23,126 nucleotides of DNA from a virus: the IMG/VR virus record IMGVR_UViG_3300008050_000335, positions 1 to 23,126 of that record, one strand, 5' to 3'. The notes under the pieces were generated by a model. It worked only from the letters and a program-made list of their open reading frames with translations, was not told the DNA's origin and made no database searches. The stretch's first letter is position 1, and the number at the start of each line of letters is the position of its first letter. This document shows positions 1-19,279 of the stretch, in pieces. The position numbers and the translations under genes are program-made.

Positions 1-63
1 ACGTTTCTAAAGATTCAAGCCGTTAACAGGTGAAAGTTAGAAACCGTCGCCGTAGGTAGCACG

Positions 64-96
64 CACACACACACACACACACGCACACACACACAC
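64..96. repeat. CA dinucleotide microsatellite
   Basis: Two runs of alternating CA, about 64-82 and 84-96, separated by a single G. Such runs are uncommon in compact phage genomes and prone to slippage, so copy number may vary between isolates or be misassembled. Confidence 0.9.
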
Positions 97-104
97 GAGC
101 GCAT

Positions 105-125
105 ACGCGTGACGCGTGACGCGTG
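105..125. repeat. 7-bp tandem repeat, ACGCGTG x3
   Basis: Three perfect contiguous copies of ACGCGTG. Each contains the palindrome ACGCGT. The array begins a few bases after the CA microsatellite and lies 11 bases before a second tandem array. Confidence 0.9.
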
Positions 126-136
126 ACATGGCGCAC

Positions 137-172
137 CACAATACCCACAATACCCACAATACCCACAATACC
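137..172. repeat. 9-bp tandem repeat, CACAATACC x4
   Basis: Four perfect contiguous copies of CACAATACC with no spacers. Short head-to-tail repeats of this size resemble replication iterons or the product of strand slippage. They are too short and regular for a CRISPR array. Confidence 0.9.
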
Positions 173-440
173 CGTAAACGTTGTACTGCTAGCCTATTGT
201 CCATAGAGGCCTCTCACAGGCCGCTCAGGACGTTTGACCCCTTATCCGTGTCTAGACATAGGGTGGCCTATATTCGGAGATGTCGAGGATCGTGCATATG
301 TAGGTGCGCCTGGAAAGAGCTCGCAGTTCCTGCGGAGCGAGGGGGGGTGGGGGGAAGGGGGTGCCCGACCGTAGGGAGGAGGACCCCTTTTCTCCCCCGA
401 CAATTTTTGCTATCCCCCAAAACTACCAGCAAACCATCCG

Positions 441-710
441 GACCCGATGGGTCACAGGGTGGGTCACACTATTGGGTCGGCTACCTATACAACGGTTTGA
501 CCCGACTTGACCCGATGACCCGACCATTTCGGAAAACTCTTAAAACTAATCTTTACTCTGTAGGAAATATATAGTAAATACCCCTTTTTGGTTATGTTAC
601 TAAATGATTGGGTCATTGGGTCATAATATAGAATATAGTAGTTAGTAAGGAGTTTTTTTTCGACCTGACCCGATTTGACCCGATAGGTTTTAGTTGGGTC
701 ATTTGGGTCA
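441..710. repeat. Array of GGGTCA/TGACCC hexamers in alternating orientation
   Basis: GGGTCA (or GGGTCG) is seen at 449, 461, 474, 610, 618, 696 and 705. Its complement TGACCC is seen at 498, 508, 516, 666 and 676, with a partial GACCC at 441. Copies form blocks of like orientation: three plus, three minus, two plus, two minus, two plus. Spacing within blocks is 8-13 bases. Many minus copies read TTGACCCGA and several plus copies TTGGGTCA. The last two blocks (666-683 and 694-710) face each other as an imperfect inverted repeat. AT-rich DNA lies between and after the blocks. The likely role is a binding array for an initiator or for the RHH protein encoded just downstream. Confidence 0.8.
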
Positions 711-812: not shown

Positions 813-1109
813 ATGGCACACGATAGTACTCATAAAATCCCCCAGCTTGAACGGGCTGCGGCAATCCTATTGGCTCAAGCGAAGATTATGAAGGGGGAAT
901 TACCGGAGTATGACAAGCGAGAAGTACGGGATCACAAGTTCACCCTGGTTCTCTCAGAGGCAGAACTGAGCAGACTTGAAGTCATAGCAGGGGCTACTGG
1001 GCAGTCTATGGCATCTGTTTTGAGAAAAGGCATGGACAAGGTCATACCCTCTGAATTAGAACAGTCTGTGGTTGAGCACGCGAATCTAGGAGGGTTCTTC
1101 GATGAGTAA
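813..1109 (+). CDS. Ribbon-helix-helix (CopG/Arc-like) DNA-binding protein
   Basis: A 98-residue protein. Residues about 41-80 fit a ribbon-helix-helix fold: a short beta strand (HKFTLVLS), a first helix (EAELSRLEVIAGATG), then a second helix (SMASVLRKGMDKVI) beginning with the usual small and hydroxyl residues. Such proteins dimerise and bind DNA through the strand, typically repressing their own operon or controlling plasmid copy number and partition. The start is supported by AAGGAG at 800-805, seven bases before the ATG. The gene sits directly after the GGGTCA array and palindrome, which are candidate targets. It overlaps the primase-helicase gene by 8 bases, so the two are probably translationally coupled. 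The fold assignment is by eye; the regulatory role is inferred. Confidence 0.72.
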   Translation: MAHDSTHKIPQLERAAAILLAQAKIMKGELPEYDKREVRDHKFTLVLSEAELSRLEVIAGATGQSMASVLRKGMDKVIPSELEQSVVEHANLGGFFDE

Positions 1110-3378
1110 TAGGTATGCACACCTGCCTGCAGTTGAAGATCTCACCTCTCAGGAATGGGTCTACAGAGACAGAACCTACACCACAGCGGAGGAGGCAAAC
1201 GCTGAATACCTCACTACCGGACTCTTCGAGAAGACCGGAACCATTAAGAAGCGGGACTGTAAAGCAGTAGGAACCCTTCTCCTGGACTTCGACCTCAAAG
1301 ACTGGCTCGTACACAAGTCCGATAAGTCGGAAGCCACCGTTAAGGAGATGCTGAGAAACTCCAGCGACAAAGCCTTAATGGACAAGCTGACAGAGTTCTG
1401 GGGATTCATTCAAGAGAACTTACCCATTGCCCCGACCACTGTTGTCTGCTCAGGCTACGGCTTTCACTGCTACTTCTGGCTCGACTACGAAGTAGACTCC
1501 TTCCCCGAAGTTTCAACAGTGCAGGATACAAACCGCAATCTCGTTGAATATATAAACGCTGCAGTAGACTTCGACCTCTGTGACACCGCTGTTGTTAACC
1601 CCGGAGAGCGCGTCACTCGGGCACCAGGCTCCTTCAACACCAAAGGCGGCAGCAAGAGACTCGTTAAGTTGGTTGCGGAGAAAGACTTTAAGTACAAGAT
1701 GGATGCCTTCAAAGCCTTCCGGATAAAGAAGGATGACCTATCGAACGGGGCCACCAAGGTAAAAGCCGCGACCTATGAGCAGGTTACCGTTGACTTTGAC
1801 GAAGTCGGAGACATTAAGTTCAAGGGAGGAAAGCTCAAAGACCTCGGAGAAGTTTCCGCTGCGCTCATAGAAGCAGTGAAAGAGGGACGCAGGGACCCTG
1901 GTGAGCATCTCCGGTGTGCCTGCCCCTTCCACTCGGGCAAGAGTGACGACTCCGCTTTCCTCCGACTGGGGCGTGACAACCAGCCTATGCTGAGTTGCTC
2001 GGGCTGCAAGATGACTTGGAGAGATAGCAGGTTCTCCAACGGAATGAGAATTGACGCAGCAGTGGCTGAACTACTCGACCGGACTGATAAAGGTAAGGTT
2101 AAGCCCTCCGCCAAGAACGTCACTATCGTTCTACGGCACGATAAACTCCTACGGGACAAGATCTACTTCAACGAAATGGACCACAACCCTTGGTTACTGG
2201 AAGATTGCTCGTCCCTATTTGCCCCCACAGGAGGCAGGCCAGAGGGTAGACCTTGGCAAGATGATGACGAATGCCTCCTTCGGGCATACATCCGAGACAC
2301 CTATAATGTAGAAATCGGTTTGACAAAGGTCTTTGAAGGTTGCAAGGAGGTCGCCCTGCGGAATCCTCGCCACCCCCTACGAGATTCTCTAGTTGCAGCA
2401 CGCAAGCACTGGATAGACTCAGGAAGGCCTACTGTACTAGACACTTGGTTCCGAAATGTATTCCCAGAAGTAGTTGACAATGACCTCCATAGGGCTTATG
2501 CACGGCGTTTTTTGCTCGGAATGGTATCTAGAATCTTCAAGCCAGGCACTAAGTTTGATAATATTCTGATCCTAGTAGGCGAACAGGGCGCAAGAAAGTC
2601 CACCTTCGTCCGAGAACTGGCAGGAGACTCCTACGCTGGAGAATCTCACCTCGACTTCCAGAACAATCGCAGTTGTGTGGAGCAGATATCAGGGTCTTGG
2701 CTCTACGAAGTCGCAGAATTTGACCGCTATGGGCCTAAAGAGCAGGCACTATTGAAGGGATTCCTCAGTGTTCAAGAGGATAAAGTGCGTAGAGCCTACG
2801 GTAGGCACGCAACTATCGCCCCTAGGACTACCTGTTTCGTCGGTACGTCAAACAAACAAGACATTTTGGTAGATGAAACGGGATCTCGCCGCTACTGGGT
2901 CATCGAAGTAGGCGAAAAAGTGAACATCGAGTGGCTCCGTGCCCATAGGGATGAACTTTTAGGCGAGGCTACGGACTGTTATATGCGCAGAAAGGGCGAA
3001 AACTACTTCCTGCACCTCACTCCAGAGCTTGAAGCGCAGAGGAATCAGCACAATGAGGACCAATTCAAGGCTACTCACGAACTTGCGCCTACGATTGCAC
3101 AGGCATTTAGCGTTAAGTCTATGATTATGCACCGGTTAGACCCCTCAAAGTTCACTGCATCGGAGGTTGCTGACGCTATGGGCATCTCTATCCGAGATCA
3201 GAAGTTAAGAAAGTACGCTATTCCGAATGCTTTGCGCGAATTAGGCTGCACTAAGAGCAAAAACAAGGTCAAACACAAGGGGATTCGCGTCAGAGTGTGG
3301 ACTTATCAAGCCGCAGCGGACGCATACACCCCCCAAGAGGGCGAGGGCTTCACGCTCGAGGGCGTAATCAGTGCTTGA
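1102..3378 (+). CDS. Bifunctional PrimPol primase-VirE/D5-type helicase
   Basis: A 758-residue replication protein. Residues about 1-210 look like an archaeo-eukaryotic primase (PrimPol) domain: an acidic motif LLDFDLKD (D62, D64), then SGYGFHCYF with H122, and a third motif around DFDLCD followed by RAPGSFNTKGG, the form common in phage and plasmid primases. Residues 272-302 carry a zinc-finger pattern, CACPFH then CSGC (C272, C274, H277, C299, C302). The C-terminal part is a VirE-like superfamily 3 ATPase: Walker A GEQGARKST (493-501, K499), an acidic LYEVAEFD (534-541) in the Walker B position, and TGSRRYW (593-599) with probable arginine fingers. It would synthesise primers and unwind the origin. 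It follows the repeat array and the RHH gene. The start ATG lies inside the preceding gene's end. Confidence 0.9.
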   Translation: MSNRYAHLPAVEDLTSQEWVYRDRTYTTAEEANAEYLTTGLFEKTGTIKKRDCKAVGTLLLDFDLKDWLVHKSDKSEATVKEMLRNSSDKALMDKLTEFWGFIQENLPIAPTTVVCSGYGFHCYFWLDYEVDSFPEVSTVQDTNRNLVEYINAAVDFDLCDTAVVNPGERVTRAPGSFNTKGGSKRLVKLVAEKDFKYKMDAFKAFRIKKDDLSNGATKVKAATYEQVTVDFDEVGDIKFKGGKLKDLGEVSAALIEAVKEGRRDPGEHLRCACPFHSGKSDDSAFLRLGRDNQPMLSCSGCKMTWRDSRFSNGMRIDAAVAELLDRTDKGKVKPSAKNVTIVLRHDKLLRDKIYFNEMDHNPWLLEDCSSLFAPTGGRPEGRPWQDDDECLLRAYIRDTYNVEIGLTKVFEGCKEVALRNPRHPLRDSLVAARKHWIDSGRPTVLDTWFRNVFPEVVDNDLHRAYARRFLLGMVSRIFKPGTKFDNILILVGEQGARKSTFVRELAGDSYAGESHLDFQNNRSCVEQISGSWLYEVAEFDRYGPKEQALLKGFLSVQEDKVRRAYGRHATIAPRTTCFVGTSNKQDILVDETGSRRYWVIEVGEKVNIEWLRAHRDELLGEATDCYMRRKGENYFLHLTPELEAQRNQHNEDQFKATHELAPTIAQAFSVKSMIMHRLDPSKFTASEVADAMGISIRDQKLRKYAIPNALRELGCTKSKNKVKHKGIRVRVWTYQAAADAYTPQEGEGFTLEGVISA

Positions 3379-6289: not shown

Positions 6290-8206
6290 ATGGCTCTTAC
6301 GGACACCCAGATCAACGAATTGATTCACGCACACCGCAAACGGGCGGAATCAGAGAACACTACTTTTGATAAGTATCGGGCGTTCTACCGCTCAGAGTAC
6401 TGGTCCTCTCAGGGGGTAGAAGCTCAAAATGTTTTAGGCGGAGTAAATGAGCGGGAGGGTACTCCTGTCACTGAGGTGAACTATGCCTATGCCTACGTCG
6501 ATACAATGGTTGCTTCCGTCGTCCCTCCCAACCCCGCAGTTACAATTCTACCAAAGAAAGAGGCACTGCGCAATCAGGCAAAGCGAAGAGAGATGCTTGT
6601 CAATGACCTATTTGACAGAACTGAGATCGTTGAACAACTCTGGGAAGCAGCAACTCTCGCAGGTGTCTGTGGTCGTTCCTTCTTCAAAGCCTTCTGGTCA
6701 GAGCGTCACAACCGTCCAGAATTTTCAGTCGTAGACCCTAAGTTTGTTTGGTTCGACCGCGAGGCTAAGAAGTGGGATGATGTTCGTTATGTCGCTCAAG
6801 TTACGGTTAAGACTAAGGAAGAGTTCGAGTCTATCGTAAAGGAGCAACTAGAGGCGTGCGCTGGAAAACTTCAAGACCTTCAAATGAAAGAGGGAGAGAT
6901 TGAAAAAGACATGGCAGAAGACCTGATGGAAGAGATGCCACAGGTTGATGCTGTCTCTGTAGATATTCAGACCAGCGAAGAGGGCAAGATTCTGGATAAG
7001 ATTCGGAAGCTAGAAGATATCCTAGAGCGCACGGATTACAACGCTTACCCTAAGTGGCTATCGGATAAGGCTCAGACTGGAAACTATATGTCTGACACAG
7101 CACGGGAAGTATTTAAGTGGGTAGTTGTATATGAGTTCTACGACTTCGTAGGGGACGGAAGGTTCCACATGATTGTAGACGGGCAGTCTACTCCTTTCTA
7201 CTCAGAAGAACTCCCTTACCGGCACCTTAAGAATCCTTTCCGCTTGCTCACCTTCAACTCAAACTTAGAAGATGTTGCGGGACTGAGCGATGTTAAACTC
7301 ATCGCCCCCATGCTAGAAGAATTGAACGAGGTTGAAAGCCTGCGCCTTTGGTTCATGAAATCTTCTATCCCTGTCATGACTCTGAACAAAGGACTCTGTG
7401 ATAACTCCGCTGATGTCAAGTCTGCTTTCGAGACTTTGAATGTTGGTGACCTACTTGAAGTCGAGGGCCGACAGAGTGCGCCTATTGAGCACATCATCGG
7501 CATGATGCAGACCCCTTCCCTATCCCCTGACTTTGCAAACGTAACTAACAGATTGGAGGCTTCTATTGAGCAGACTCTTGGTTTATCTAAGTATTCTCGT
7601 GGTGGTGTTGGTAATACGGATGTTGCAACGGAAGTAGCGTTAGCAGACGCTGCGAACCGTACTCGTAATGGCCGCCGCCAAAAGAAAATCTACTCGGCAT
7701 TAAGCTGGATGACCACTAGCGCAATGAGACTGTGGGAAGAGAACCTAAGCGATGATGATCTTCTCATGGTTAGAGTTGACGAGTTGGCCCCGTATGAGGA
7801 GATTAACAGGGATGGGATGGGCATGGTAGGCGTGGAGGAAGTAGACCACACTGAGTCTGTTGAAATGTACGCATACGAGGCTGTCCCCTACTCCGCTGCG
7901 GACAACAACCGAGTTGTGCAACTCCAGCAGATGCAGCAGTGGATGGCTCCGCTAACAGGCAACCCTGCTATTGCGCCGTTCGTTGACGGGGCAAAGTTGG
8001 CGCGTAGGATGCTAGAACTCTTAGAAGTTCCCGAAGTGTTTGCAACTCCACAGCCACAGGCGCAGCAACCGATGGGGCAGGGCTTAGGCACGCCACCGGG
8101 TGTCGAAGAAGGAGCACCTCCAGGAGGGCTCGCTGGCGCAGAGGCTCCGCTACAAGAGGCCCCAGAAGGGCTACCTATTTTAGACGGGTCATCACCAGCA
8201 ATTTAG
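6290..8206 (+). CDS. Portal protein
   Basis: A 638-residue protein three bases after TerL, the usual place for a portal. Its twelve-fold ring would form the DNA entry and exit channel at one capsid vertex and dock the terminase. The N-terminal helices (RKRAESENTTFDKYRAFY), the following YAYVDTMVASVVPPNP segment, the long acidic helical insert (about 180-245) and the later GLSKYSRGGVGNTDVATE region followed by long helices suit podovirus-type portals. The last 40 residues are rich in Pro, Gly and Gln. No single catalytic motif exists for portals, so the call rests on length, position and overall pattern. AAGGAG precedes the ATG. The amber stop is nested in the next gene's SD. Confidence 0.87.
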   Translation: MALTDTQINELIHAHRKRAESENTTFDKYRAFYRSEYWSSQGVEAQNVLGGVNEREGTPVTEVNYAYAYVDTMVASVVPPNPAVTILPKKEALRNQAKRREMLVNDLFDRTEIVEQLWEAATLAGVCGRSFFKAFWSERHNRPEFSVVDPKFVWFDREAKKWDDVRYVAQVTVKTKEEFESIVKEQLEACAGKLQDLQMKEGEIEKDMAEDLMEEMPQVDAVSVDIQTSEEGKILDKIRKLEDILERTDYNAYPKWLSDKAQTGNYMSDTAREVFKWVVVYEFYDFVGDGRFHMIVDGQSTPFYSEELPYRHLKNPFRLLTFNSNLEDVAGLSDVKLIAPMLEELNEVESLRLWFMKSSIPVMTLNKGLCDNSADVKSAFETLNVGDLLEVEGRQSAPIEHIIGMMQTPSLSPDFANVTNRLEASIEQTLGLSKYSRGGVGNTDVATEVALADAANRTRNGRRQKKIYSALSWMTTSAMRLWEENLSDDDLLMVRVDELAPYEEINRDGMGMVGVEEVDHTESVEMYAYEAVPYSAADNNRVVQLQQMQQWMAPLTGNPAIAPFVDGAKLARRMLELLEVPEVFATPQPQAQQPMGQGLGTPPGVEEGAPPGGLAGAEAPLQEAPEGLPILDGSSPAI

Positions 8207-17608: not shown

Positions 17609-19279
17609 ATGGCCATCGACTGGAAAGAGCGCGACCTCATCGTAGAAAGAAGATACGCAGAGTTTGAGGCTGCGGCTAGAGATCGTAGGGAAGCCGCTCA
17701 AAGAGAGGCTGCTAAGAAATCTAATGAGGAAGCGGAAGCCCTGGCAGCGCAGGCCGAGGCCGAAGCCGAGTACCCCGACTTTGAGGCGGGGGAACTTTAT
17801 CCAGAGTCAGATTCAGAGACAGGCGAGCCTATGGACTATGACGGGGCTGAGTTATCCACTCAAGTGAGGGACAGCGCACGCACACAGTCAGAGGACAGTT
17901 TAGGCGGAAAGCCGTCTGTAGCAACTCAGATAGCCTCGGACAGAGAGGATACTCCTGAAAAAGGGCCACAGCCTGTGTACACCCCTGACGGGCCTAGAGT
18001 CTCGTTCGGAGGCCACTCCGAGAGAAAGTCAGCGGCTGGAGCAAGAGCCAAGGCTTCAGACGGCGGGGGGCTACTAGGCCCCAGAAGAGGCCGTCAAATA
18101 AAACAAGGCATTGGAAGGATCTGGTATGGTTTAACTAGACAAGACGAGAAACAGGCAGGAATTATAGCCTCGCAAGAAAGTCAAGACCTACGGGGTAAAG
18201 CAGTCAAGGCTGGGCTCGTTACGCCAGATGAGGTTAGAGATGAGGTTACTGCGGATACATTGTTAGCCAATGCTATCCAGTACTTGAACCCATCTATTCC
18301 TGCCCACAAGCGTGGAGACATAGGGACTCCACGCTTGTGGGCATTGGCTAAAAGGAAAGAGGACCTAGCCCGTAGAATTATTACGCAGGCGCGTAATAGA
18401 AGCGAGTCAGCATTGGGAGATGCGTGGAAACACGTACCCGAAGATCTCCGTGAGGGTGCCCACAAAGCCCTAGGGCTCGAGTACGATGCAGTCTCTCCTG
18501 CAGAACGAGCAGCGGGAGGCGGCGAAGAAACTACTGCGGTATCTACAGAGACTGACAAAGAGCAGTACATTTACGACACACGGGCGGAAGTACCTTCTCC
18601 CAACCCCAAGACCGATACCCCAGAACAAACAGCCGCTTGGGATACTTATATGCAGGCCATCGCTGACGGCGACTTGGACGATCAATTTGAGGCTTCTCAT
18701 GCAGTACGGAGAGCGTTCGGCAGGCCAGTCTTCTCTCAGGAGAAGGCAGCGGCAGGGGCTTCTGACAGTCCTACTGAAGAGCCTGCATCTGCGAGAGTAG
18801 ACCCCGCAAAACTTTCTGCGGAGGTCGCTGATTCTATCATATACATAGAAAGTAAAGGCAAAGCGGATGCTAAGAATCCTAAGAGTTCTGCAACGGGACT
18901 CTATCAGTTTGTAGATGGTACTTGGCTGGAGATGATCAATAAGTACCGACCAGACCTCAAAGAGGGTAAGAATGAGCAAGAGATCTTAGACTTGAGGCTA
19001 GACCCAGCAATATCACGAGAGATAGGACTTAAATTCACCGAGGGTAACATTAAGGGGATGCAGAGTGCAGGCATCAAGGTGACTCGCGGCAAGGTCTATC
19101 TTGCGCACTTCTTAGGTCTAGGGGGGGCTAAAAGACTTTTAACTGCGAACCCCAACGCCCGTGTTGATACTGTAATGAGTCGCGCAGCAATGAAAAACAA
19201 TAGGAGTCTCCTCGTGAAAAACGGGAAGGCAATTACTGTACAACAGTTTATCGACTGGGCCGAAAAGAAAATGGCATAA
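17609..19279 (+). CDS. Virion protein with C-terminal lytic transglycosylase domain
   Basis: A 556-residue protein. Residues about 1-400 are charged and low in complexity, with an Ala/Glu coiled-coil start (RDRREAAQREAAKKSNEEAE). The last 155 residues form a soluble lytic transglycosylase-like domain: IIYIESKGKADAKNP with E414 as likely catalytic acid, then SSATGLYQFVDGTW (426-439), then VYLAHFLGLGGAKRLL (496-511), all in the order typical of phage peptidoglycan-cleaving virion enzymes. It would be packed inside the head or tail and cut glycan strands as DNA enters the cell. The lack of holin or other lysis genes nearby argues against a lysis endolysin. SD AAAGGA precedes the ATG. A perfect 17-bp inverted repeat lies inside the gene (18301-18343). 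Confidence 0.85.
   Translation: MAIDWKERDLIVERRYAEFEAAARDRREAAQREAAKKSNEEAEALAAQAEAEAEYPDFEAGELYPESDSETGEPMDYDGAELSTQVRDSARTQSEDSLGGKPSVATQIASDREDTPEKGPQPVYTPDGPRVSFGGHSERKSAAGARAKASDGGGLLGPRRGRQIKQGIGRIWYGLTRQDEKQAGIIASQESQDLRGKAVKAGLVTPDEVRDEVTADTLLANAIQYLNPSIPAHKRGDIGTPRLWALAKRKEDLARRIITQARNRSESALGDAWKHVPEDLREGAHKALGLEYDAVSPAERAAGGGEETTAVSTETDKEQYIYDTRAEVPSPNPKTDTPEQTAAWDTYMQAIADGDLDDQFEASHAVRRAFGRPVFSQEKAAAGASDSPTEEPASARVDPAKLSAEVADSIIYIESKGKADAKNPKSSATGLYQFVDGTWLEMINKYRPDLKEGKNEQEILDLRLDPAISREIGLKFTEGNIKGMQSAGIKVTRGKVYLAHFLGLGGAKRLLTANPNARVDTVMSRAAMKNNRSLLVKNGKAITVQQFIDWAEKKMA
18301..18343. repeat. Perfect 17-bp inverted repeat inside a coding sequence
   Basis: TGCCCACAAGCGTGGAG at 18301-18317 is exactly the reverse complement of 18327-18343, with a 9-base loop between. 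It encodes roughly residues 231-245 of the transglycosylase protein (AHKRGDIGTPRLWA). There is no T-tract, so it is not an intrinsic terminator. The mRNA would form a very stable GC-rich hairpin. Confidence 0.97.

Follow-up and report, generated by a model that had tools for sequence, protein, structure and literature searches.

The array of GGGTCA hexamers at positions 440-710 of the window, i.e. the whole 23,126-b stretch of DNA analysed here (an IMG/VR virus record classed as linear; 49.5% AT overall), is probably the replication origin of a tailed phage, in which the repeats would serve as iterons bound by the PrimPol-VapE primase-helicase encoded downstream. This assignment is based on the sequence and on analogy with characterized systems. 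The origin is most likely of a known type, the iteron type, placed here 5' of the initiator operon instead of 3' of it.

Structure of the repeat array

The array consists of 13 GGGTC cores in both orientations with the consensus (A/G)T(T/C)GGGTCA, 11 of which are exact GGGTCA copies lying within 449-710. A degenerate copy on the minus strand (440-445, GGACCC on the plus strand) is followed by three plus-strand repeats (449-454, 461-466 and the variant GGGTCG at 474-479), three on the minus strand (498-503, 508-513 and 516-521), two on the plus strand (610-615 and 618-623), two on the minus strand (666-671 and 676-681) and two on the plus strand (696-701 and 705-710). The initial annotation, which was made from the sequence alone, had reported 12 full copies in blocks of three plus, three minus, two plus, two minus and two plus. 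The dense array and the block pattern were confirmed, but the count of exact copies had to be lowered to 11, the supposed third plus copy being GGGTCG, and the minus-strand GGACCC at 440-445 had to be added. Neighbouring repeats of the same orientation follow each other within the blocks in steps of 8, 9, 10, 12 or 13 b, and long spacers lie between. The repeats thus form two sets, 440-521 and 610-710, on either side of a stretch with 72% AT (522-609), an arrangement also present in the origins of the SaPI/PICI type. By analogy with PICI origins, where AT-rich DNA lies between two sets of iterons (PMC6092414), this spacer is a candidate melting region. A second AT-rich spacer (624-665; 74% AT) contains a T8 tract, which is kept in the related locus L007 of the genome G001 described below; the array is split by these two spacers, in line with the initial annotation. 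A G-rich tract, GGGGGGGTGGGGGGAAGGGGG, is located directly 5' of the array at 340-361; it is also kept in L007 and could form an unusual DNA structure.

GGGTCA occurs 21 times on both strands of the whole window, compared with 10.3 copies expected. The 10 copies outside the array are scattered over about 22.9 kb, i.e. 1 per 2.3 kb, which agrees with the initial estimate of about one per 2 kb by chance. To define the chance level of clustering, the window was shuffled 100 times with its dinucleotide content preserved, and mixed-orientation hexamers were counted in stretches of 300 b. The best count in the shuffled sequences was 3.9 on average and 6 at most, whereas the array reached 11 and the second-strongest real hexamer array of the window 5.

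Conservation of the array and genomic context

A single relative carrying this region, G001 (54,184 b), was found, with 88% identity at the DNA level, 97% in the ribbon-helix-helix (RHH)-like protein and about 92% in the primase-helicase. The last approximately 165 b of G001 are the same as its first, one homopolymer base apart, and the genome closes at about 54.0 kb. The identity between the window and G001 was about 95% in the repeat columns, 81% in the spacers and 71% in the 5' flank of the array, with one variant repeat registered one base off in this comparison, which affects at most two columns. The higher identity of the repeat columns than of the spacers indicates that the array is under constraint. 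In G001, just as in the window, it is by far the strongest hexamer array. The initial annotation had proposed that loss of the array in close relatives that keep both neighbouring genes would argue against its reading; G001 possesses both genes and the array.

On the closed map of G001, the array is located where the leftward and rightward gene arms diverge. The rightward arm comprises the RHH, primase-helicase and virion genes, whereas the leftward arm includes genes for a Cas4-like nuclease and for a fusion of a uracil-DNA-glycosylase domain with a family A DNA polymerase (locus L014, 15876-18419). The cumulative GC skew of G001 also turns at the array; this is not independent evidence, since the skew follows the gene strand. 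In the window, matches to terminase, portal and virion genes were found downstream of the primase-helicase gene. The virion arm of G001 contains an ORF of 3025 aa (21943-31020; L013/L014), and the window ends inside its counterpart. The left end of the window (60-173) is made up of (CA)n, 3.3 copies of ACGCGTG and 4.2 copies of CCACAATAC in tandem, and the contig probably broke in assembly at these repeats. A perfect 17-b inverted repeat with a 9-b loop was observed at 18301-18343 within the ORF 17609-19279.

The putative initiator

The genes adjoining the array, for the RHH-like protein (813-1109) and for the primase-helicase (1102-3378), both on the plus strand, were found as initially annotated. 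The 758-aa primase-helicase has PrimPol-like motifs and an SF3 helicase domain of the VapE type (PF05272, E = 1.6e-59). When its structural model was compared with the PDB, the top match was SaPI PriRep1 on DNA (7pds), which covers nearly the whole chain with E of about 1e-22, compared with 1e-8 for the next family. The C-terminal residues 661-735 (3082-3306, plus strand) are winged-helix-like in the model, at moderate confidence (pLDDT about 57-87). SaPI Rep reads iterons through its C-terminal domain, and by analogy with the C-terminal domains of SaPI Rep and Cch2 (PMC7581432) we propose that residues 661-735 may form the iteron-reading domain. Between the PrimPol and helicase domains, at residues about 271-302, the motif C-x-C-P-F-H...C-x-x-C was noticed, which resembles a primase zinc finger.

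Arrays at the genes of VapE homologues

The strongest evidence for the proposed origin comes from 80 loci of viral contigs, with 79 VapE homologues, which were fetched by protein alone, without regard to any motif. Each locus was scanned for its strongest array of mixed-orientation hexamers. After near-identical loci had been merged, 69 clusters remained, and arrays of at least 7 copies were present in 36 of them. In 29 of these 36 clusters, the array adjoined the VapE gene at its 3' end, whereas 3.4 would be expected from length (p about 8e-24). The repeated words vary by lineage and include TGGTAACA, GGCAACA, TGGACA, GGATACA, GGGACA and others. Arrays at the gene edge with lineage-specific words are what is expected of the binding sites of cognate initiators. 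These results, namely the occurrence of arrays at the edge of VapE genes far above chance and the change of the hexamer with lineage, together with the SaPI PriRep1 fold as the closest one, support the initial suggestion of an iteron-type origin with the primase-helicase as the initiator.

The position of the array 5' of the operon speaks against the origin function, since the array lies 3' of the gene in most VapE phages. There is no space for an array 3' of the primase-helicase gene of the window because the next gene overlaps that end. Moreover, the 5' layout recurs in a clade related to the window. A small RHH-like gene precedes the VapE gene in L605, L606, L610, L617, L651, L653 and L665, and an inverted AGTGCAGGGT array is located upstream of the operon in L606, L610, L617, L651 and L653. 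In the helicase-domain tree, the window falls into a group of 15 rows together with the L605/L606/L610 clade (support 98/95), the branches being long. The nearest homologue by tree path outside the window's own lineage, L643, which was found by protein, has six copies of GGGTCA in its 3' array, three on the minus strand followed by three on the plus strand, with AT-rich DNA between them.

Arrays at the genes of other primase-helicases

Motif-only scans were run on viral and bacterial collections, and their results are biased by selection through the motif itself. The scan of the bacterial collection yielded almost no true arrays. One bacterial contig, L489 from a Saprospiraceae MAG, carries seven plus and then seven minus GGGTCA copies at 7077-7310, mostly 10 or 20 b apart. 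Among the matches listed, mixed-orientation arrays of at least 8 copies were found at 71 of 122 loci for GGGTCA and at 17 of 119 for the control hexamer ACTGGG, these rates being rough. GGGTCA is thus not unique as an array word, although it is apparently the commoner one. Of the 27 ACTGGG loci that had an array, 18 also contained a VapE or AAA_25 gene, always with the array on the 3' side of the gene (18 of 18); such a gene was present in 2 of 92 ACTGGG loci without an array, again among the matches listed.

GGGTCA arrays in 35 other contigs among the matches listed were located on the 3' side of the gene for a TOPRIM-AAA_25 primase-helicase, at a median distance of 24 b and in some cases more than 1 kb away. 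In the phages Salicola CGphi29, Idiomarinaceae 1N2-2 and Alteromonas PB15 and XX1924, which were chosen by protein, an array likewise adjoins the primase-helicase gene at its 3' end, with the words GGGACA, GGTACA or GGTTCA; a fifth homologue, L603, has no array at the 3' end of this gene. In these TOPRIM-AAA_25 phages, as in the window, a mixed-orientation array of GGNNCA hexamers abuts the primase-helicase gene, and a small DNA-binding gene is located directly upstream; they differ from the window in their non-homologous helicase and primase, in the 3' position of the array and in having an HTH instead of an RHH gene. In L600 and L601, this small HTH gene (XRE or YdaS-Cro-like) overlaps or abuts the TOPRIM-AAA_25 gene, which parallels the RHH-PrimPol pair.

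Many of the words from both groups fit the theme GG-(1 to 3 bases)-CA. Defined after the data had been seen, this theme fits 18 of the 26 motif-blind VapE arrays, a proportion reached in none of 2000 letter shuffles, and in the AAA_25 phages it is represented by GGGTCA, GGGACA, GGTACA and GGTTCA. We tentatively suggest, while considering it rather doubtful, that mixed-orientation arrays of such hexamers might be a common origin signature across the non-homologous PrimPol-VapE SF3 and TOPRIM-AAA_25 primase-helicases.

The RHH-like protein and alternative functions of the array

The RHH-like protein is a small putative DNA-binding protein of 98 aa and a candidate repressor of the operon. Its residues 41-78 resemble the strand-helix-helix succession of a ribbon-helix-helix fold. 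The sole database match was a weak one to phrog_876 (transcriptional repressor; E = 5e-4), no match to Pfam was obtained, and the two-sequence AlphaFold model showed the two-helix pattern with a poor pLDDT of 49.5. A search of viral contigs with this protein returned only the relative G001. The start codon is located about 100 b from the end of the array, and the RHH gene overlaps the primase-helicase gene by 8 b. The palindrome GGCAAAT-TATT-ATTTGCC is located between the array and the gene at 749-766; its core is unchanged in G001 (L007, 435-450), whereas its 5' neighbours vary. Judged from the sequence, this palindrome is the likelier operator for the RHH protein and a candidate site of autoregulation. 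By analogy with the small first gene of the pRN1 operon (PMC4234260), the protein is probably a repressor of its own operon; it is perhaps also a brake on initiation. Scans for promoters and terminators gave nothing beyond chance level.

The initial annotation had suggested that the RHH protein reads the array. This part of it was not borne out: the steps of 8-13 b provide no fixed register of the kind found in omega-type operators, an adjacent RHH gene is missing from many phages that have such arrays, and the conserved palindrome is a better operator candidate. One way in which the RHH protein could still act at the array, which we consider rather unlikely, is that the helicase initiates at the iterons and the RHH protein competes there as a copy-number brake. 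A precedent is PrpA, an antitoxin of the RHH type that binds to the iterons of a plasmid and blocks RepB (PMC7848731), and RHH-like genes recur next to this VapE subgroup, but the sequence gives no sign that the RHH protein binds GGGTCA, and the homologies are weak. An improbable function of the array is that of an omega- or CopG-like operator without any role as an origin, at which the bound RHH protein would silence the RHH-PrimPol operon. The array does end about where the operon promoter would be expected, and the orf56/orf904 operon of pRN1 provides a known case of an RHH repressor of a primase-helicase operon (PMC4234260). However, the array lacks the contiguous repeats of constant register that are typical of omega/CopG-type operators, equal arrays are found in many VapE and AAA_25 phages on the opposite side of the gene, away from the promoter, and the separate conserved palindrome lies nearer to the RHH gene.

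It is very improbable that the array serves for packaging, as a pac/cos site recognised by the small terminase. The contigs of both the window and G001 start near the array, and another phage group has GGGTCA arrays adjoining the genes for the small and large terminases; the array of the window, however, adjoins the primase operon, with the terminase genes beginning 3.4-3.8 kb away, and the contig ends look like assembly breaks since they are located in low-complexity sequence and G001 can be closed into a circle. In that other group (L161, L215, L249, L188, L223 and about 30 more), the arrays consist of TTTGGGTCATTTGGGTCA doublets, and a DUF5906 primase is encoded about 2.4 kb from them; these arrays may be an origin, a pac site or both. 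A partition (centromere-like) site, also considered in the initial annotation, is extremely unlikely: the centromeres of some plasmids do contain repeat arrays that are read by RHH proteins, but the scanned proteins of the window and G001 (a subset of the ORFs) included no recognisable ParA-like ATPase.

Comparison with known systems and proposed mechanism

The closest parallels to the proposed origin are those of SaPI/PICI elements with Pri-Rep proteins (PMC6092414, PMC7581432; 7pds), which share the VapE-type SF3 initiator, the two repeat sets around AT-rich DNA and an origin adjoining the initiator gene. In contrast to the window, their origin is located directly 3' of the rep gene, and they are satellites without a capsid and tail set of their own, whereas the window belongs to a phage of the 54-kb class with PolA and structural genes, whose operon is headed by an RHH gene. 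In SCCmec, the C-terminal domain of the D5/VapE-related helicase Cch2 similarly binds short repeats (AAGTG) adjoining its gene, but these are three repeats on the 3' side and the polymerase-primase is separate (PMC7581432). The alpha protein of satellite phage P4 primes, unwinds and reads repeats (ori and crr) through a C-terminal winged helix, according to the account of Ziegelin and Lanka (1995) and Yeo et al. (2002) cited in PMC4234260; we propose the same union of priming, unwinding and repeat reading for the protein of the window. P4 alpha differs in its TOPRIM-type primase, its repeat sequences and its genome. The pRN1 operon orf56-orf904 likewise has a gene for a small DNA-binding repressor followed by one for a primase-polymerase-helicase with a C-terminal winged helix, but its origin, on the 3' side of the operon, consists of a stem-loop and has no iterons (PMC4234260).

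On the basis of these analogies, initiation at the iteron array might proceed as follows. The subunits of the primase-helicase would bind the GGGTC(A/G) iterons by their C-terminal winged-helix domain, and the iteron sets 440-521 and 610-710, with repeats in both orientations, could hold two helicase rings that flank the AT-rich spacer 522-609, which would then melt. The PrimPol domain would synthesize primers on the opened DNA, which the phage's own family A polymerase may then extend. The RHH protein would repress the operon, acting mainly at the palindrome 749-766, and would perhaps also slow down initiation.

Most origins of environmental phages are unmapped, and in this case the putative origin, its initiator and the likely regulator can all be named from the sequence. 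Similar arrangements appear to be frequent in other viral contigs, some of which may be satellites. The survey suggests a rule according to which a dense array of mixed-orientation hexamers bordering a primase-helicase gene could place the origins in many phages. If the GG-(1 to 3 bases)-CA theme is true, the C-terminal winged helices would read related words that drift with the lineage, and phage origins and their initiators would become predictable from sequence alone.
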